This document shows positions 28,552 through 37,519 of a DNA stretch of 44,100 bases, piece by piece. A program made the position numbers and the translations under genes. Under the pieces are notes generated by a model. The model ran no database searches, was not told the DNA's origin, and was given only the letters and a program-made list of their open reading frames with translations. Source of the DNA: Pseudomonadota bacterium (lineage in GTDB: Bacteria > Pseudomonadota > Alphaproteobacteria > SHVP01); contig JAQBYN010000025.1 in assembly GCA_027622715.1 (NCBI GenBank), forward strand, positions 1 through 44,100, given 5' to 3'. The first letter of the stretch is position 1. Each line of letters opens with the position of its first letter.

Positions 28552-28800
28552 TTGGTCCCGCTGTCTTGGCTCGTCGAGGAAGGCAGGAGCCTGTTTGTCT
28601 GGTGCATCCGATGCGATCACCATGGCACGATGGCGGTTGCGCCGCTGGTTAAAAAGCTGGGCGACGACTTTCCGATTCCCAGGGTTGCCGGGCGCCTTGT
28701 TTGCTCGCGGTGCGGGGCGCGTGAGTTCACGGTTAACCCAAATTGGAACGACGTCGATATCCCTGGGGCGCCCAGGAGTCTTCCTGCAGCGCAGCGCTAG
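28552..28800 (+). CDS. small zinc-ribbon-like protein
   Basis: An 82-residue protein starting at a TTG with an AGGAG site eight bases before it. Two CxxC pairs, CIRCDHHG (about residue 18) and CSRCGARE (about 51), probably bind one zinc ion. Between them is LVKKLGDDFPIPRVAGRLV. Short proteins of this pattern recur in alphaproteobacteria and are uncharacterised. The stop shares CTAG with the stop of the nitrilase gene on the other strand. The 190 bases upstream hold no other gene and no convincing promoter. Confidence 0.65.
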   Translation: MVPLSWLVEEGRSLFVWCIRCDHHGTMAVAPLVKKLGDDFPIPRVAGRLVCSRCGAREFTVNPNWNDVDIPGAPRSLPAAQR

Positions 28801-30740
28801 GCTGCTTCGGGCGCGACGAAAACCCCTTCTTTGGTATATCGGCGGACGACCTCAAGGGTTGGTTTCATACCCCGGTAAGGGAAATCGGCAACGTCGTCGG
28901 CCCATAGATCGTTGGGCATGCCCTGTCGTGTCTCGTAGATATGGCCATAGACGGCGGGTTCGTCCCAGGCGGCGAGGTTGATAAACGGGTTGGCACGGGC
29001 CTTGCGCAGCGCGCGCAGGTCGACCCGGCCTTCGAGCGCGACGCGGCCAGGGCCGTCGGCGACAACCTGAACGCTACCGTCGAAGTTCACGATCTTGGCG
29101 TGACCGCGCGAGTAGAGATTGGGCACGGTGTCGCTGTGGTTGAGGTACTCGCCGCCCATGGCTGCCGAAACGACATACGCCGTGTTTTCGAACGCCCGGG
29201 TGCGCCGCCCCATTTCCCACGCGGCACGCCCCCCACCGTGCGGCTCGGACGTCGGATGCAAGATCACTTCGGCGCCACGCTTGACCAAGGCGCGCGCGGT
29301 TTCGGGAAAGTTCATATCGAAGCAGACAATTGTCCCGAGACACCCGAGCGGCGTGTGCACGACCGGAAACAAATGGTCGTAGCCGTATTTGTCGACATAG
29401 CGCGTGTAGATACTGCCCGGTGTGGTGTCGGGCAGCGTGCCTAGAACGTCCGCGCACTGGATCTTCCGGTAGCGGTGAATCACGGTGCCGGAGTCATCGA
29501 TAATGAACGCCGTGTTGAAAAACCGCCCAGGCCAGTCGTCGTCGGCTTCGAAGCAGCCACCGGCGACGTAGCATTTCATGTCTTGCGCAAACTGACACAG
29601 CCGGTCGATCTCCGGCCCCGGAAAGCGGACGCCGATTTGCGCCCACAGCTCGGGTGAACGATTGACCTGCGCGCCGGTGATGAAGAATTCCGGGAAGACA
29701 ACGATTCCGGGTTTGGTCCGCTCGACGCGAAACTGCACGAGTTCGATCGCCTCCTCGACATTGCGCATTTTCGTTTTCGCCGCGAGTTCAATGTCACGAA
29801 GGATACGCACCACGTGCTGACCGAGAATCACACCGTAGTTGAGGCGCTCCTCTTTGCCGGGCGCAGTGGCGACCGCAGCGACGCGGCGCTGCCCCTCTTC
29901 TCTCCAAGCCAAGCGGCTGGCCGGCGATTCCGCGACATTGTTCTTGTTCGTGCGGTAGCCCGGCGCATAGAGCTGGGTCCGTAAGATTGCAGGGAAATTA
30001 GGACCGGGCGCCTGACGCAAGCGGCGCAGCCGGTCAATATCAGGGTTGCATAGGATGAAACTCTCATCCCCTTGAGCGCGGACGGTGTTACCGATCCAAT
30101 CGTTGAGCGCCGAAGCCGATGGCAACGCAATGGTCGCGCCTTCGAGAGTCGCCGAACGCGGTGACGCGCACGCCAAATATATGCGGTTCTCGTAGGGCCG
30201 CGCGCGGCGCACGATCTGGCGCATCTCAAACCGCTCATCGGTCAGTTCGCGCGTTGGATTGAGCAACAGCTCACAGCCATTGAGGGTGAGCGCCCGGACC
30301 AAATGCGGGAACAGAATATCTTCGCCAAGCAGAAAGCCGAGTTGACCATGCGGCGTGAGGGCCACCGAAAAGGATGCGGGAACGTTAAAGTCGACCGCCG
30401 CGTCGTCGTACCGATCAACCAGATCCGGCGAGATTTTCGGCGTGCGCAGCAGGCGTTTCCCACCTGGGTCGAATAGGTAAGCAATGGTTTGCGCCCGGCC
30501 GCTGGGGTCGGCCACGACCTGCCCTGCAGCGGCAAGATAAACCCCCTGGCCCCGCGCCAATCCGCCCAGGCCCTTCTCGAAAGACTGCTCATCTGGCGTC
30601 TCGCCCGCCCCATCGGCCAACGGCAACAGCACCAGGGGGGGCGTAACGTCGTCCAGCCGCCGTTTCGAGGCGCGTATCAGCGCCTGTGTCTCATCCTCAA
30701 GGGTGTTCAGGCCCCAGGCCTGCTGGGAAATCACGAGCAC
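28797..30740 (-). CDS. tandem nitrilase-superfamily protein with an inactive first domain
   Basis: A 647-residue protein with two carbon-nitrogen hydrolase domains. The second is intact: Glu at about 350 (VVFPEFFITG), Lys at about 424 (HRYRKIQ), Cys at about 472 (TIVCFDMNFPE). The first (about residues 1-280) keeps the fold and a Lys (RTPKISPDL), but the Glu site reads LLPLADGAG and the Cys site LLGEDILFP, so Glu and Cys are lost. I choose the GTG at 30740 because it follows GGAGGA; an ATG at 30872 has no such site and would overlap the divergent lyase gene. The product may cleave an amide or nitrile, or act on N-carbamoyl compounds. Confidence 0.85.
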   Translation of the reverse strand: MLVISQQAWGLNTLEDETQALIRASKRRLDDVTPPLVLLPLADGAGETPDEQSFEKGLGGLARGQGVYLAAAGQVVADPSGRAQTIAYLFDPGGKRLLRTPKISPDLVDRYDDAAVDFNVPASFSVALTPHGQLGFLLGEDILFPHLVRALTLNGCELLLNPTRELTDERFEMRQIVRRARPYENRIYLACASPRSATLEGATIALPSASALNDWIGNTVRAQGDESFILCNPDIDRLRRLRQAPGPNFPAILRTQLYAPGYRTNKNNVAESPASRLAWREEGQRRVAAVATAPGKEERLNYGVILGQHVVRILRDIELAAKTKMRNVEEAIELVQFRVERTKPGIVVFPEFFITGAQVNRSPELWAQIGVRFPGPEIDRLCQFAQDMKCYVAGGCFEADDDWPGRFFNTAFIIDDSGTVIHRYRKIQCADVLGTLPDTTPGSIYTRYVDKYGYDHLFPVVHTPLGCLGTIVCFDMNFPETARALVKRGAEVILHPTSEPHGGGRAAWEMGRRTRAFENTAYVVSAAMGGEYLNHSDTVPNLYSRGHAKIVNFDGSVQVVADGPGRVALEGRVDLRALRKARANPFINLAAWDEPAVYGHIYETRQGMPNDLWADDVADFPYRGMKPTLEVVRRYTKEGVFVAPEAA

Positions 30741-30840
30741 AGCTGTCCTCCGTAGGTATGGCGCGATTGTTTCGCTCGCACGGGCCCGGCGCAACCCTTG
30801 TACAGACCGTTGACCGCCCTGCGTCGCCAGACCATCCTGG

Positions 30841-31710
30841 GTGCGAAAACGATCTTTTAGGGAGGGCGTCATCGTTCATTCGGCCAGTCTTTTTCGCAGC
30901 ACGTTGTTTGTCCCGGGCAATCGGCCCGAGCGGTTCGAGAAGGCCGCGTCAAGCGGCGCCGATCTCATCGCCATTGACCTTGAGGACGCTGTCCCGCCCG
31001 AGAACAAGGACGAGGCCCGCGCAACGGTCATGACCTATCTGCCGCAGCCTTACAGCGCGGCGGCCCGCCGCTTCGTGCGGATCAATTCACCCAAAACCCC
31101 GGCTGGGCTGCGCGATCTGGGGGCGCTCATCGATGCGACAGCGATTCCCGACGGCATCTTGATCCCTATGGTGGCGACCGCAGCCGAGGTTCAATGGGTC
31201 GACGGCCTGCTGGCGCACCATCCCAGTCTCGACCTGATCGCGGTCATCGAGACCACCGAGGGCCTCGACAATGCCTATGAGATTGCCGGCGCGTCGCCGC
31301 GATTGCGCGCGGTCGGGTTCGGGTCGGCCGATTTCACGTCCGAGACCGGCGGCACCATGGAATGGGACCCCCTGCTCTATCCGCGCAGCCGCATTGCCGC
31401 GGCCTGCGCGCGCCACAAAATCATCGCGCTCGACGGCGTATGGCTGAACATCGCTGATGACGAAGGTCTTATCGCCGAGACCCGCGCGATCAAAGCGCTC
31501 GGCTACCGCGGTAAGATCGCCATCCATCCCAAACAGATTGCCGGCATTCACACCGGCTTCGCACCGACCGAGAAAGAGACCGAGCGCGCGCGCAAAGTAG
31601 TTGCCGCCTTCGAGGAGGCAAACGGCGCCGCAATCAAGGTTGATGGCCTCATGGTCGACTTACCGCTTTACGAATCCGCCCAGCGTACGCTTGCGGCAGT
31701 GGAGGCATAG
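30841..31710 (+). CDS. HpcH/HpaI or CitE-type CoA-ester lyase
   Basis: A 289-residue TIM-barrel lyase. STLFVPGNRPERFEKAASS opens the family, IAIDLEDAVPPENKDEAR holds the metal-binding Glu and Asp region, AVIETTEGLDNAYEIA carries the metal Glu, and KIAIHPKQIAGIHTGF closes it. Relatives cleave malyl-CoA, citramalyl-CoA or citryl groups. The only canonical start is a GTG at 30841. A better ribosome site, GGGAGGG at 30860-30866, sits before ATC/GTT codons, so a rare start near 30871 is possible. First gene of an operon with two oxygenase genes. Confidence 0.88.
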   Translation: MRKRSFREGVIVHSASLFRSTLFVPGNRPERFEKAASSGADLIAIDLEDAVPPENKDEARATVMTYLPQPYSAAARRFVRINSPKTPAGLRDLGALIDATAIPDGILIPMVATAAEVQWVDGLLAHHPSLDLIAVIETTEGLDNAYEIAGASPRLRAVGFGSADFTSETGGTMEWDPLLYPRSRIAAACARHKIIALDGVWLNIADDEGLIAETRAIKALGYRGKIAIHPKQIAGIHTGFAPTEKETERARKVVAAFEEANGAAIKVDGLMVDLPLYESAQRTLAAVEA

Positions 31711-31716
31711 AAGCCG

Positions 31717-32715
31717 ATGTCGAGCGTTCCGCTGATCAACATTGCGCCGTTCCTCGATGGGCGCGAAAAAAAAGGCGTGGCCGTGCAAGTTGATGCGGCG
31801 TGTCGCAACATTGGGTTCATCATTGTACAGGGCCACGGCGTCGACCAGGCGTTGATCGCCGAGATGCACCGGATCAGCGCGGCCTACTTCGCCCTGCCGT
31901 TTTGGGAAAAGATGCGGTTCAAAATGCCGCCGGATCGCTATCGGGGCTACACCCCGTTGGGCGCTGAGAGCCTGTCCTACAGCCTGGACGAGGCCCAGCC
32001 TCCTGACCTCAAGGAATCATTCTCGATTGGGCCGTTCGACCACGCCTTTGACAGCTATCATTTTGGCTCGGCGGGCGCGCGTTACTTCGCACCAAATTTT
32101 TGGCCGGACAGCCCACAAGGGATGCAAGCTATTTGGGAACGCTACTACGCGGAAATGGACCGGTTAGCGGGCGACCTGATGCGGATATTCGCGGTCGCAT
32201 TGGACCTAGAAGAAGACTGGTTCGCCGACAAGATCGACCGCCACATCACCAATTTCAGCGTCATCCATTATCCCGGCCAAGATGAGACCGCCCCGGCGGC
32301 GGGCCAAAGCCGCGCCGGCGCCCACACAGATTATGGCAGCTTGACCATCGTTCAGACCGATACCGACGTGGGCGGGCTCGAGGTCCAGACCCGCGATGGG
32401 AATTGGGCGGGGGTGCCCTGGATTCCCGACACCTTTGCGATCAATCTCGGCGACCTGATGTCCGAGTGGACCAACGATCAATGGGTCTCGACGCTACACC
32501 GGGTCGCGAACCCGCCGCGCGACAAGGCGCATATTAGCAAGACATCGCTGCTGTTTTTCCACCAACCGAACTATGATGCGTCGATTGAATGCATCCCGAC
32601 GTGCACCAGCGCCGACAATCCGCCGCGACATGAGAAGATAACGTCGGGCGACCACGTGACGATGAAGATTAACAAGCATCGCGCCGTCGATGACGTGATG
32701 CAGGCCGCCCAGTAA
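31717..32715 (+). CDS. isopenicillin-N-synthase-like Fe(II)/2-oxoglutarate dioxygenase
   Basis: A 332-residue non-heme iron oxygenase. The N-terminal part (INIAPFLDGREKKGVAVQVD, then GFIIVQGHGVDQALI) is the DIOX_N domain. Iron ligands are His203 and Asp205 (GAHTDYGSLTIVQTD) and His261 (STLHRVANPP). Where Arg of the RxS motif usually binds 2-oxoglutarate there is Lys275 (KTSLLFF). It starts six bases after the lyase gene and is followed after 20 bases by the HD-domain gene. Substrate unknown; relatives act on amino acids, gibberellins, ethylene precursors or phosphonates. Confidence 0.9.
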   Translation: MSSVPLINIAPFLDGREKKGVAVQVDAACRNIGFIIVQGHGVDQALIAEMHRISAAYFALPFWEKMRFKMPPDRYRGYTPLGAESLSYSLDEAQPPDLKESFSIGPFDHAFDSYHFGSAGARYFAPNFWPDSPQGMQAIWERYYAEMDRLAGDLMRIFAVALDLEEDWFADKIDRHITNFSVIHYPGQDETAPAAGQSRAGAHTDYGSLTIVQTDTDVGGLEVQTRDGNWAGVPWIPDTFAINLGDLMSEWTNDQWVSTLHRVANPPRDKAHISKTSLLFFHQPNYDASIECIPTCTSADNPPRHEKITSGDHVTMKINKHRAVDDVMQAAQ

Positions 32716-32735
32716 AACTGGGCCAGGAGATGACC

Positions 32736-33326
32736 ATGGAGAAAGTCGGCTTTCGGCATCTCGCCGAGTCCACCAAGGCAGACCACGACGTCCTGCAGCC
32801 CTACCTCGAAGAAGAAAACACCCGCACGGCGGACCGAGTCCTTGAGATGTTCACGTCGTTGAAGGACAAGGACTGCGGCCCGTTGCCGGTCGATATCTTC
32901 GAGCATGGCCTCCAGACCGCCACACTGGCGCTTCAGGACGGCGCCGACGAGGAGACCATCGTTTGCGCGTTGCTCCATGACCTGGGGCATTATGTTGCGC
33001 CGATGAATCACGGTCGGTTTATCGCCGAACTGTTACAGCCCTTTGTTTCCGAAGAGAATTACTGGGTGCTGCAGCACCACACCGTCTTTCAGGCCTACTA
33101 CTACCTTCATCACATCGGCAAGGACCGCAACGCGCGGGACCAATACAAGGACAGCCCGCACTACGATAGCGCGCGCCGTTTCGTCGAGCGGTGGGACCAA
33201 AAGGCTTTCGATCCCGCCTTCAAGGCCGAACCGCTGGAAACATTTGCCCCGATGGTCCGCCGCATCTTCGCCCGGACGCCGCACGTCGCCGGGGCCAAGG
33301 CGCCGTTGTCTGCGGCGGTCGCCTAG
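32736..33326 (+). CDS. HD-domain protein, PhnZ/MIOX-like diiron oxygenase candidate
   Basis: A 196-residue protein. The ATG at 32736 has AGGAG at ideal distance; an ATG two codons earlier is too close to it. Candidate ligands are His57 (FEHGLQTA), His81-Asp82 (LLHDLGH), His92 (NHGRF), His115 (LQHHTVF) and Asp154 (VERWDQKAFDP). The 24-residue step from His57 to His81 and the RWD motif near the end recall PhnZ and TmpB, which use a mixed-valence diiron centre to cut C-P bonds with oxygen, and myo-inositol oxygenase. An ordinary HD phosphohydrolase is the alternative. The dioxygenase gene before it makes the oxygenase reading more likely. Confidence 0.75.
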   Translation: MEKVGFRHLAESTKADHDVLQPYLEEENTRTADRVLEMFTSLKDKDCGPLPVDIFEHGLQTATLALQDGADEETIVCALLHDLGHYVAPMNHGRFIAELLQPFVSEENYWVLQHHTVFQAYYYLHHIGKDRNARDQYKDSPHYDSARRFVERWDQKAFDPAFKAEPLETFAPMVRRIFARTPHVAGAKAPLSAAVA

Positions 33327-33427
33327 ATCGCGGCAGACCAAACCGCAAACTCCCGCGCCCAATCCGAAGCCCCGGGCGGGGGACGCCAGTATGACTTTGA
33401 CACCCCCTCGCGTTGTCCACTGAGCGG

Positions 33428-33983
33428 ATGGTGACGGACTCTGTGACGGACGAGCCAACAGCGCGGGACTCAAGGGGAAGGGATTTCGCTCTTTTCCCGC
33501 TAGCCGTCTGTGCATTCATTGTCGACCGGAAGCGCCGTTTTCTGATGTTGGAGCATCCGGATAGGTCGCCGGCCATAGAAGTTGTTAATGGAGCGGTGAA
33601 TGGCCGCTGCGATTCGCGAGGTTCGCGAAGAGGCGGGCAGTTCTTTGCAAGTGACCCCCCTAGGCGTTTTCCATGCGCATTCGGTTCGATACGACGATTT
33701 GATTCCGCCGCTCGTTAGTGTTTGCGTGCTTTTCGAGGCTGGCAACACCTCAGTTGTTGCCGGCAGCGACATGGCGGGTAGTGTCATCAGGTGGTTGAAT
33801 GTAGAGCAGATGATCGCTCAACAAAGCCGAGTGGTTGTGCCGAGCGCCGGAGACTCAGACGGGCCATACTGGCTGTTCGAGCGAGCCTTGAAATCGTACG
33901 ACCAATGGACGGCGCAGGGCGTCGAACCCATTGAAAAGCTCCAACCTACTTACTCAAGAGTCTCTAACAAATATGTGAAATAG
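33428..33983 (+). pseudogene. broken NUDIX hydrolase gene
   Basis: The first part (LFPLAVCAFIVDRKRRFLMLE and VVNGAV, up to 33598) and the second part (MAAAIREVREEAG from 33600, to 33983) are one NUDIX protein of about 185 residues in two frames. Between GAV and MAAAIREVREEAG only one base remains where the NUDIX box needs six residues, including its first conserved Glu, so about 17 bases are lost. Base use is more AT-rich than in the neighbours, especially near the end. It lies behind the oxygenase operon. Neither half would be active. Confidence 0.75.
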
Positions 33984-34035: not shown

Positions 34036-35505
34036 CTAGGCTGCGGCCTTCTCCTTCATAAGCGCCGCGACGGTATCCTCGACCACGGTGCCTTTGAAAA
34101 TGTCGGGGTTCATCCCGGCGTGCATTTCGGCCGGATGAACGAAGGTTAGATCGCGAAAGTCGTCCGTCGTCAGCGACCCCTCGTCGACCAGACTGTAGGC
34201 CTTGGCAATGACCTTGCGTGCATCGGTGACGTCGAAATGGCCGATGTCCGAGCCGATCAGCGCTTTGAACTTGGCGCCGAATTGGTTGAGTTTTTCGTTG
34301 AACGCCCAGGCCATGATGCGATCGTCCGATTCGCACCCGAAATAGAAGTTCGGCACGAACAGATCGTAAATGTCTTTCTCGTTGGTGATCCCGCAGCGGG
34401 CGAAATCGTCGAGATCGGCCTCGCGCTCGGGCGGCCATTCGTAGAACACCCCATCGCTGACCTTTAGCTCGTCGAGTTTGGTTTGAACTTTGGGGCCGCC
34501 GTATTGGGTGGCGAGTTCGACTAACAACTCTCTGTCGATCCGCGCTGGATCGAGATGCCGTTTAAGTTCAGGCACGTTGCGCTTTTCCCAGTGTTCGATG
34601 AGATCGTTGTACAGGCTGGCCGCCCAGCCGACACCGCATTCGAGGAACCCGAATTTGAGGTCGGGGAAACGCCGGGTTACGCCGCCCAGCACCAGTGCTT
34701 TGCAGAACGCCTGGCTACCGGCCGCGAAATGACCGATGTGGTTGAATGTCACGTTGGAGATTGAGGTCCGATCGACCCAGCCCATCGTGCTGGTATGCAT
34801 TGTCGGCGCGACCTTCAAGTCCATGCATTTTTGCCAGACCGGGTCGTAATCGTAGGGACTGTCGAGCGCGAGCGGATCGATCCAATAAGACGCAACCGCC
34901 GACGCCAGGTCGCGGTCACCGCCAATGGCACCCTGGATGGGCCGACGCACGGCGCCCTCAACCATCGCCGCCTTGAGACCGCGTTGGCCGATGGCGTAGT
35001 CCAATTCTTCAAGCGCCTCTTGCGGCGTATGCATCGGGATCACAGCCGCCGGCGCCAGCCGGTCCGAATATTCGTCGAACAAGTCGGCGTTCATCGTGTT
35101 GATCGCCCGGACCACGCCGCGCCGCATTTCTTCGTCATCAAGCCCAACAAAGAGAATTGCCAGCGTCGGATAGACAAACGAGAAATCGATGCCGAACTCG
35201 TCCAAGCGCGAGTGCAGAAGACCGGGGAACATGGCCGTGGCCCGGTCGCGCGTGTTACCGGCAGGGAACATCCAGAACGGTGCACGTTTGATTCGCTTGC
35301 GGGTGCGCTCTTCCGGCGTGGCGTGATACCAGCCCCAGAACTTCCCGTCCTTAAGCATATCGAGGTAGCGCTTGACCATCGTCGCGCCGCCGACATCCTT
35401 GATGTAATCCATCAACACCGGCTCGACCTCAAGCATGTGCGCGTCAGCGTCGATGATCGGGTGATCGAGTTTTTCGCGCACCTGTTGAGATGTACTTTTG
35501 GTCAT
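34036..35505 (-). CDS. Amidohydrolase_2 family (ACMSD-like) metal-dependent hydrolase
   Basis: A 489-residue TIM-barrel protein with GGAGGGG before its ATG. It opens with HPIIDADAHMLEVEP, the metal-binding start of this family (here Asp-x-Asp-x-His), has NTMNADLFDEYSDRLAPAAVIPMH (about 140-165), a histidine in FNHIGHFAAGSQAF, and ends with SDIGHFDV, where Asp near the C-terminal end of the barrel is expected. Relatives decarboxylate aromatic acids or hydrolyse amides or esters. It is monocistronic and divergent from the gene at 35673. Substrate unknown. Confidence 0.85.
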   Translation of the reverse strand: MTKSTSQQVREKLDHPIIDADAHMLEVEPVLMDYIKDVGGATMVKRYLDMLKDGKFWGWYHATPEERTRKRIKRAPFWMFPAGNTRDRATAMFPGLLHSRLDEFGIDFSFVYPTLAILFVGLDDEEMRRGVVRAINTMNADLFDEYSDRLAPAAVIPMHTPQEALEELDYAIGQRGLKAAMVEGAVRRPIQGAIGGDRDLASAVASYWIDPLALDSPYDYDPVWQKCMDLKVAPTMHTSTMGWVDRTSISNVTFNHIGHFAAGSQAFCKALVLGGVTRRFPDLKFGFLECGVGWAASLYNDLIEHWEKRNVPELKRHLDPARIDRELLVELATQYGGPKVQTKLDELKVSDGVFYEWPPEREADLDDFARCGITNEKDIYDLFVPNFYFGCESDDRIMAWAFNEKLNQFGAKFKALIGSDIGHFDVTDARKVIAKAYSLVDEGSLTTDDFRDLTFVHPAEMHAGMNPDIFKGTVVEDTVAALMKEKAAA

Positions 35506-35672
35506 GTCCCCTCCAAGAGGCGCGGTGGCAGTAGTTTATGAGCACACGACCAGGATTGAGGCAGTTCATGGCCTCGCCGTGGTGCGGCCGCCGAAGGCGA
35601 CGGGCGGATTTTGACAGTTTCCTGACCCGGCTCCAAGGTACGTCTTGGGAAAAGATTTCACGGGAGGTCGCG

Positions 35673-36371
35673 ATGAAACACCGGACAATCAGGGGACGGA
35701 TCGACTACATCACCGACGATGTAGGCGTGATGGGCCGGGAGTGGTTTACCCATACCGTACATTCGGACGGCCATCGGACCATGCGGGCCCTCACCGAGAT
35801 GGACGACGACGACCTTCTGCGCGATGTCACGTTCAGCGTGGATGAGAACTGGTTGCCCTTGGATTGCTTCGTTCGCCTAACCATCGGCGACAGGTTTCAA
35901 GGCACCGGCTGGTTTCGGTTTACCGACACCTACACCGAGTGCGAATCCTACTCGATCGACGCTGGCCGGATCAGCCAACGCTGGCCGATGGACGGGCGCA
36001 CACCGCTTTTCGTCAGCCATGCCGTCTCCTGCGACGCGTGGACGAACGCCACATTCGATATGTCGCGCAAGAAAGAGAAGCAATTGATCTATCCCCGCAT
36101 GGCGAGTTCGCCACTCGGCAACGGCGGATCGGGCCCGATGCTCGGCAATTCGACGACGGTGACCCCGACGCCGGCGACGCTCTACCTTGAATATCTTGGC
36201 GAGGAAGACGTGACGGTGCCCGCCGGCACCTTCAAGTGCCACCGGATTGCGCTGAACCGCGGCGATATTCCGCGGTTCGAGATTTGGACCCACGGGCCCG
36301 ATTTCTTGCCGGTCCAACTGCGCTACGACAAGCTTAATCAGTACTATCAGTTGACCGAACTAGACATGTAG
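35673..36371 (+). CDS. protein of unknown function, beta-rich
   Basis: A 232-residue soluble protein. GGGAGG lies six bases before the ATG at 35673; an earlier in-frame start at 35538 adds an arginine-rich stretch that looks non-coding. No signal peptide. The end (YLEYLGEEDVTVPAGTFKCHR, then FEIWTHGPDFLPVQLRYDKL) resembles beta-sheet lipid- or ligand-binding folds such as DUF3108-like proteins, but I do not recognise it surely. A TTGACA at 35611 could be the -35 box of its promoter. It is followed 27 bases later by a methyltransferase gene. Confidence 0.65.
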   Translation: MKHRTIRGRIDYITDDVGVMGREWFTHTVHSDGHRTMRALTEMDDDDLLRDVTFSVDENWLPLDCFVRLTIGDRFQGTGWFRFTDTYTECESYSIDAGRISQRWPMDGRTPLFVSHAVSCDAWTNATFDMSRKKEKQLIYPRMASSPLGNGGSGPMLGNSTTVTPTPATLYLEYLGEEDVTVPAGTFKCHRIALNRGDIPRFEIWTHGPDFLPVQLRYDKLNQYYQLTELDM

Positions 36372-36397: not shown

Positions 36398-37519
36398 ATG
36401 GAACGCCAGCACCGCCACAATCTTCTGGTGCAGGAGAACCACGACGAAGAGGCGCGCGAAATGTTTGCCATGGAGTTGTCCGGACACCTCACGCGCGAGG
36501 TTTTTCCGGGCACCCGGTGCCTGTTCGATGGGCGAATCGCGCCCGCCTTCCAGCGGCAGCATCAGCGCGCGCCCAACCGTACCGAAACCAGACGGGCCTT
36601 GCTGCAGCAGCCTTACTACCAAATGTGGAGCTCGCTCAAACGAACCGACCAGGAGATCCTGTTCGATAGCGTGGGCGAAACGGTTGATCGTCAGCGCGAA
36701 GACCTAACGGCCCGCGGCAAAAGGCCGCCGCGCAAAGCAGGGGGAACACTGCGCCTCGACCCCGCGATCAAACCGCCGCGCTATCTGACGGCTGTCGACA
36801 TCCATTGCATGCCGGGCAACTACACGGCCGATCTCGGCGGCGACGACGTATCGGCCGGCGCGATTTTCGACCGCGGCCTGTTCCTGTATGGCCGCGGCGG
36901 TCTGGGACCACAGAGCGACGACATGGGGGCCTCGGTCTGCGCTTGGCTGAAAAAGGCCCATCCGGGTTTTGTCCCAAAAGATATTCTGGACATGGGGTGT
37001 TCGATCGGCGGCAACACCCTGCCCTTCGCGCGCCTGTTCCCTAAAGCCAAAATCCACGCCATCGACGTCGGCACCGGCATTTTGCGCTACGGCCACGCAC
37101 GCGCGGAAGAACTCGGTGTTGCGATCCACTTTTCCCAACAAGACGCCGAACACACGTCGTTTGCAGCGGAGAGCGTCGATCTTATTGTGTCGCATCTGCT
37201 CGGTCACGAAACGTCGCTGGCCGGATACAAAAATATCATGCGCGAATGCTTCCGCTTGTTGCGGCCGGGCGGGATGATGGTGCACACCGAAACCGAATGG
37301 TCCACCGAGAGTGATCCGTTCAACCAGTCGGTGCTCGATTGGGAGACCCACTACAACGGCGAGCCCTTCAAAACCAAACTCGACACGCTCGACAACATCG
37401 GCGTCGCGGTCGATGCGGGATTTTCCAAGGAGCGGGTGTTTATGGAGAGCGCCCCAAGTCTGCGTGCCGGAACGAAGTACTATCAGGGCCGCTGGGCGAT
37501 TTTCGGCGCGACGAAATAG
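36398..37519 (+). CDS. class I SAM-dependent methyltransferase with an extra N-terminal domain
   Basis: A 373-residue protein with an AGGAGG site seven bases before the ATG. The Rossmann methyltransferase lies in the C-terminal half: motif I DILDMGCSIGGNTLPFA at about 194-210, IHAIDVGTGILRY, SQQDAEHTSFAAESVDLI and CFRLLRPGGMMVHTE. The first 180 residues (for example LSGHLTREVFPGTRCLFD, MWSSLKRTDQEILFDSVGE) form a separate domain without a motif that I know. Substrate unknown. It is probably co-transcribed with the unknown protein upstream and converges with an MDR gene, seven bases away. Confidence 0.85.
   Translation: MERQHRHNLLVQENHDEEAREMFAMELSGHLTREVFPGTRCLFDGRIAPAFQRQHQRAPNRTETRRALLQQPYYQMWSSLKRTDQEILFDSVGETVDRQREDLTARGKRPPRKAGGTLRLDPAIKPPRYLTAVDIHCMPGNYTADLGGDDVSAGAIFDRGLFLYGRGGLGPQSDDMGASVCAWLKKAHPGFVPKDILDMGCSIGGNTLPFARLFPKAKIHAIDVGTGILRYGHARAEELGVAIHFSQQDAEHTSFAAESVDLIVSHLLGHETSLAGYKNIMRECFRLLRPGGMMVHTETEWSTESDPFNQSVLDWETHYNGEPFKTKLDTLDNIGVAVDAGFSKERVFMESAPSLRAGTKYYQGRWAIFGATK

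Follow-up and report, generated by a model that had tools for sequence, protein, structure and literature searches.

A candidate HD-domain diiron oxygenase encoded beside a mononuclear iron dioxygenase in an alphaproteobacterial operon

PhnZ, which works together with PhnY, is an HD-domain oxygenase that has a mixed-valent diiron centre and breaks the C-P bond in hydroxy-aminoethylphosphonate. In a 2020 review, the characterised HD oxygenases were three, namely MIOX, PhnZ and TmpB, and a YxxE loop was described for PhnZ and TmpB and not for MIOX (PMC8177086). The published pathways that combine a hydroxylase with an HD enzyme are four, and all of them degrade phosphonates (PMC10574752). Our literature search, with most subscription journals outside its coverage, returned no paper on the HD clade described here or on its pairing.

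Here, we analysed a window of 44,100 nucleotides, by which we mean the whole stretch of DNA under study. The window is an entire contig of a 3.1-Mb alphaproteobacterial genome, and it carries a mononuclear iron dioxygenase gene followed by the gene of an HD protein. An earlier interpretation made from the letters alone (the sequence-only reading) had proposed that the two enzymes form a two-step route parallel to PhnY-PhnZ and TmpA-TmpB, with a first enzyme that is not of the PhyH type and with a new substrate.

Organization and conservation of the operon

A CitE-like CoA-ester lyase gene (30841..31710), the gene of the 332-aa dioxygenase (31717..32715) and that of the 196-aa HD protein (32736..33326) lie head to tail on the + strand and are separated by 6 and 20 bases. 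The dioxygenase stop codon occupies 32713-32715 and an AGGAG stands 5' of the HD ATG at 32736, so that the HD start and the 20-base gap hold; this arrangement, already described from the letters, agrees with the open reading frames. The lyase has an HpcH_HpaI domain (Pfam, E 3e-43) and is RipC-like at 246 bits, below the equivalog cut-off of 375. Its true start is uncertain because the gene overlaps the start of a divergent gene on the - strand (28797..30872), which encodes a tandem CN_hydrolase (nitrilase-like) protein of 691 aa. On the other side, an Amidohydro_2 protein is encoded convergently with the HD gene (34036..35505, - strand), and beyond it lie, both on the + strand, the genes of a protein with a sub-threshold DUF3108-like match (35538..36371) and of a SAM methyltransferase (36398..37519). 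Between the HD and amidohydrolase genes, at 33413-33983, a NUDIX-like reading (EVVNGAVNG / AAIREVREEAGSS) is apparently split over two frames, perhaps through a frameshift or a fault in the assembly; in L032, a sister species, the two flanking genes abut directly. Genes outside annotated records were called by a simple script, and a scan for sigma-70 promoters gave 0 sites and was uninformative.

The nitrilase-like, lyase, dioxygenase and HD genes are arranged in the same way in three species of the genus, with identities of 81-84% for the HD protein and 86-87% for the dioxygenase. A PBP_like_2/ABC transporter set directly adjoins the cluster in sister species (L032, 11211-13529; L034, 4871-7177) and is absent from that place in the window. 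Outside the genus, window-type HD proteins (62-65% identity) were found in two sister genera (G004 and G006) with no dioxygenase orthologue, and window-type dioxygenases (66-72%) were found in three others (G003, G005 and G008) with no adjoining HD gene, those of family f81 likewise standing apart from it. In the sister genus g5 (genome G006), the amidohydrolase (67% identity) is, as in the window genus, convergent with the HD protein, a 48% relative of the protein at 35538-36371 is encoded close by, adjoining the HD gene, and a 40% relative of the methyltransferase adjoins an HD paralogue. The Amidohydro_2 protein is the deepest-conserved neighbour of the HD protein. For the conserved co-occurrence of the dioxygenase and HD genes that the sequence-only reading had looked to, the picture is mixed: the pair persists in three species of the genus and HD-2OG pairs recur family-wide, but the orthologues stand apart in sister genera.

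In a rival account, the HD protein would be an oxygenase of the PhnZ/TmpB/MIOX kind whose true old partner is the amidohydrolase, with the dioxygenase and the lyase as later genus-level additions to one catabolic cluster that serve other steps or substrates. The HD protein (65%) and the amidohydrolase (67%), together with the DUF3108-like protein, are common to sister genus g5, and the dioxygenase and lyase adjoin the HD gene only in the window genus. We nevertheless consider this account rather unlikely, as the spacing is tight in all three species of the genus and 2OG oxygenases of several unrelated families occur beside HD family genes far above chance (see below). The coupling of the dioxygenase and the HD protein in this exact operon is moderately supported.

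The dioxygenase, whose fold is evident from its sequence, contains DIOX_N and 2OG-FeII_Oxy domains (PF14226, E 1.2e-25; PF03171, E 7e-16). Its iron triad H203-D205-H261 lies at the positions first read from the sequence, with an HTDYG that starts at H203 (codons for the HTD at 32323..32331) and an HRVAN that starts at H261 (codon at 32497..32499). The accompanying description as an isopenicillin N synthase (IPNS)-like enzyme needs to be qualified: the H-D-H triad is present, but the protein is nearer to 2OG-type enzymes, that is, the ethylene/succinate-forming-like 9ovh (E 1e-44) and thymine dioxygenase (5e-38), than to IPNS (only 2e-14). Both Pfam domains and the triad are shared with all three of these enzymes, whereas the window clade differs from them in having K-x-S and not R-x-S. 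In particular, the usual R-x-S, a motif for binding 2OG or a substrate carboxylate, is replaced by K275-T-S277 (32539..32547) in the window genus and in the loci L069 and L071, and is retained in all other aligned relatives. Such a change would be conservative and compatible with dioxygenase activity, and the cosubstrate is likely, not certainly, 2OG because K275-x-S277 stands for R-x-S. The neighbourhoods of dioxygenase orthologues vary between families, and no common one giving a substrate lead was found among them.

The HD protein and the known HD oxygenases

The HD protein matches the HD domain PF01966 (E 4e-6), and its proposed ligands H57 (32904..32906), H81-D82 (32976..32981), H92 (33009..33011), H115 (33078..33080) and D154 (33195..33197, within a WDQxAFDP motif) are all where they had been predicted. 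These six diiron-type ligands (H-HD-H-H-D) are not a chance set because they are invariant in 60/60 and then in 113/113 family sequences. When 113 members were aligned with 20 TmpB/PhnZ-set proteins, they coincided with the six TmpB/PhnZ ligands; the PhnZ chain aligned with the HD protein has its first two ligand histidines at H34 and H58, which bears out the spacing of 24 residues given for it in the sequence-only reading, and also has Y24 and E27.

An AlphaFold model of the HD protein (mean pLDDT 92.7, pTM 0.88) was obtained from input built from the window and fetched loci; the metal-site geometry is inferred from the alignment. A Foldseek search with the model retrieved PhnZ/TmpB at 8e-6 to 5e-5, the next match being an HD-GYP at 0.14 and no other lying below 0.1. 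Similarly, a second structural aligner gave Z scores of 17.8 for PhnZ, 16.6 for TmpB and 11.7 for MIOX, and at most 8.3 for all other chains compared, which were a tRNA-processing enzyme and hydrolases, with YqeK, alarmone hydrolases, phosphodiesterases and SAMHD1 at 5 to 7. In a PDB sequence search, the convincing matches were TmpB and PhnZ alone (3e-7 to 1e-6), and the best NCBIfam models were TmpB (1.2e-12) and TIGR03276 Phn-HD (1.5e-12), both as partial-length matches. The earlier assignment to a PhnZ/MIOX-like group is therefore upheld, in that the fold groups with PhnZ, TmpB and MIOX above every HD hydrolase and keeps the six ligands; in the alignment and the structural ranking, neither the loss of a second metal site nor a better fit to phosphohydrolases was seen.

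These comparisons bear on the alternative that the HD protein is a dinuclear phosphohydrolase of nucleotides or phosphate esters and that the adjacent dioxygenase is incidental. Pfam does place the protein in the generic HD family, and the database names of family members, such as 'HD domain-containing protein' and, in one record, 'inositol oxygenase family protein', include some of 'phosphohydrolase'; moreover, the ligand set of dinuclear HD hydrolases is much like this one, with six-ligand sites in YqeK and HD-GYP (PMC8177086). However, the three known oxygenases top the structural ranking with a gap before any hydrolase, the nearest NCBIfam models are those of TmpB and PhnZ, and the recurrent partners of the HD family are oxygenases and not nucleotide enzymes, which makes a hydrolase improbable. 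A phosphohydrolase identity is disfavoured by Foldseek and by the Z ranking alike. In the tree, the HD family is split from TmpB/PhnZ with full support. Most likely, the HD protein belongs to an uncharacterised sister clade of PhnZ/TmpB that consists of candidate HD diiron oxygenases of the PhnZ/TmpB/MIOX type, and we consider it probably an oxygenase.

The clade differs from PhnZ and TmpB at several sites. The YxxE columns hold Y in 19/20 and E in 14/20 proteins of the TmpB/PhnZ set; in the HD family, Y and E are outside the four commonest residues at the respective columns, and the window protein, with C47 and L50 aligned there, has no YxxE. The Lys of HVAAK, after ligand 5, is K in 19/20 of the TmpB/PhnZ set versus Q in 113/113 of the family (Gln119 in the window), the DxxxK of PhnZ/TmpB is changed to WDQxAFDP, and the SLxLQGG insert, some 20 residues long, is missing in the family rows shown. 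In PhnZ, phosphonate binding is helped by the YxxE loop, by the Lys that follows ligand 5 and by the SLxLQGG insert, and because the HD protein lacks them, a phosphonate would be an unlikely substrate for it. In addition, the protein falls below the NCBIfam equivalog or hypothetical-equivalog cut-offs, with 48 of 300 bits for TmpB, 47.4 of 214.6 for TIGR03276 and 32 of 300 for GmPhnZ, and the genes of the window that were examined included 0 recognisable phosphonate genes. Another C-P-cleaving pathway of the PhnY-PhnZ/TmpA-TmpB kind, which would have in its favour the same two-enzyme logic, the distant homology and fold likeness to PhnZ/TmpB and the window-clade H85 that corresponds to H62 of PhnZ, is thus very improbable. 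With the three features missing and the model scores far under their cut-offs, the phosphonate pathway was set aside.

Each described system matches the locus in part. PhnZ is similar in fold, in the order of the six ligands, in the 24-residue spacing of the first two histidines and in adjoining an iron dioxygenase, but it shares only about 22% identity with the HD protein, which lacks its YxxE and SLxLQGG and has Gln for Lys after ligand 5, and the window partner is DIOX_N rather than PhyH-type. TmpB, which works with TmpA, is likewise similar in fold and ligands, and a family member on a Pseudomonas plasmid adjoins a TmpA-like enzyme and choline genes; it differs in its separate, fully supported clade, in the score of 48 bits against 300 and in phosphonate-site features that are missing in the window HD protein. 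MIOX is similar in fold and ligand motif, has no YxxE loop and offers a precedent for C-C cleavage, but its identity is about 15% and it works without a 2OG partner.

2OG oxygenases beside the HD family

The HD family was found in 107/386 sampled genomes of the class, and a homologue is also encoded in Ruegeria sp. TM1040, a marine strain in culture (WP_011536807). A genome scan with two short peptide patterns, of which the best 80 of 417 hits were considered and whose frequencies are not unbiased, found it also in Gammaproteobacteria, Gemmatimonadota, Acidobacteria and SAR202, and in one Planctomycetota and one Acidimicrobiia record. The source genome has a second family member (46% identity; L031, G000:C57:52218-52775), whose surroundings are stable and comprise amidase, AMP-binding, MmgE/PrpD, MaoC-like, enoyl-CoA hydratase and FAD synthetase genes but no dioxygenase, and family genes stand in tandem, less than 1 kb apart, in several genomes (G332:C68, G124:C30, G376:C14 and G220:C64).

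Among these best 80 of 417 hits, a TauD/TfdA enzyme lies within three genes of the HD gene in 26 loci, immediately upstream in 22 of them, compared with 3 hits in 533 gene slots farther away. Same-strand TauD/TfdA-HD pairs mostly overlap by 4-11 bases, and the Gemmatimonadota pairs are mostly divergent; three of the TauD/TfdA partners were examined, and they score 209-233 bits with the models for gamma-butyrobetaine dioxygenase and TmpA. In the same 80 loci, a PhyH enzyme neighbours the HD gene in five and an Asp_Arg_Hydrox enzyme lies directly upstream in three. The latter loci (L131, L178 and L181) have a sulfotransferase together with the Asp_Arg_Hydrox enzyme directly upstream of the HD gene, which is an unusual trio. 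When redundancy was reduced, the 80 loci fell into 30 clusters at 70% HD identity, and a 2OG oxygenase neighbour was present in only 8 of the 30.

DIOX_N enzymes are adjacent or nearly so to the HD gene in the window genus and in six further genera (G003, G073, G164, G279, G132 and G232). The two DIOX_N-paired HD sets form separate clades on the HD tree, and their DIOX_N enzymes are only 31-36% identical to each other; the pairing in the six other genera arose independently of that in the window genus. In the class sample, about 0.4 co-localisations of HD and DIOX_N would be expected by chance and five genera were seen (P ~5e-5, or 1e-3 with the chance expectation doubled). A peroxidase-related (AhpD-like) protein, about 190 aa in length, accompanies the second DIOX_N-HD clade (L043, L065 and L080). 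L060 and L062 have long open frames that might have held an oxygenase-HD fusion, as in fungal PhoF, but no dioxygenase domain was found in them.

Other neighbours of HD family genes include DMSP-demethylase-like GCV_T, RACo, FAD-dependent DAO and a carnitine 3-dehydrogenase over its cut-off, a hint that some members of the family are tied to the chemistry of methylated amines or one-carbon units; this does not apply to the window operon. On a plasmid of Pseudomonas aeruginosa (L089, NZ_CP115240.1, 37311-51853), a family member follows by 1 base a TauD/TfdA enzyme that reaches 347.5 of the 400 bits required by the TmpA model, and genes for choline uptake and oxidation come next; the plasmid is from a cystic-fibrosis Pseudomonas aeruginosa. 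In another locus (L193, 4561-9407), a carnitine 3-dehydrogenase (above its cut-off, with 725 bits), a class II aldolase-cluster protein, an HD protein and a PhyH enzyme are encoded in one run, possibly a route into carnitine-like compounds. The recurrence of HD family members beside 2OG oxygenases of four families gives good support to a hydroxylate-then-cleave logic for this family.

A possible two-step oxidative route

We propose that the mononuclear iron dioxygenase, probably with 2OG, would hydroxylate a C-H bond of a small organic molecule, and that the HD enzyme would then, with O2 and a mixed-valent diiron site, break the bond adjoining this hydroxyl, presumably C-C or another C-X rather than C-P. 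The CitE-like lyase may then handle a CoA-ester product. We lean, if only slightly, towards this reading of the operon as a two-step oxidative breakdown of a small molecule with a candidate HD diiron oxygenase, and we infer with about even confidence that what the window dioxygenase produces is the substrate of the HD protein. Several observations weigh against it, namely the separation of the HD and dioxygenase orthologues outside the genus, the absence of YxxE, the K-x-S of the dioxygenase and the 8 of 30 clusters with a 2OG oxygenase neighbour, as well as the similar ligand set of dinuclear HD hydrolases (PMC8177086). As for the parallel route advanced in the sequence-only reading, the HD oxygenase fold and the recurrent 2OG/DIOX_N neighbours speak for it, but this gene order is conserved only within the genus, and the phosphonate-site features are absent, a phosphonate being unlikely.

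More broadly, and with confidence a little short of even, we suggest that the members of a large family of HD diiron oxygenases found across phyla may act after at least four families of 2OG hydroxylases and cleave C-C (or C-N/C-S) bonds of non-phosphonate metabolites, partly in methylated-amine or carnitine/betaine neighbourhoods, with the window operon as the DIOX_N-partnered version. MIOX, PhnZ and TmpB and the four phosphonate hydroxylase-plus-HD pathways were known before; what is new here is the HD-oxygenase-like sister clade. Its recognition would correct the names 'phosphohydrolase' and 'inositol oxygenase family' on some family proteins. The occurrence of this clade beside four kinds of 2OG oxygenase, with the phosphonate-site features missing, points to a general two-step oxidative cleavage strategy, an idea that is open to ordinary enzymology.
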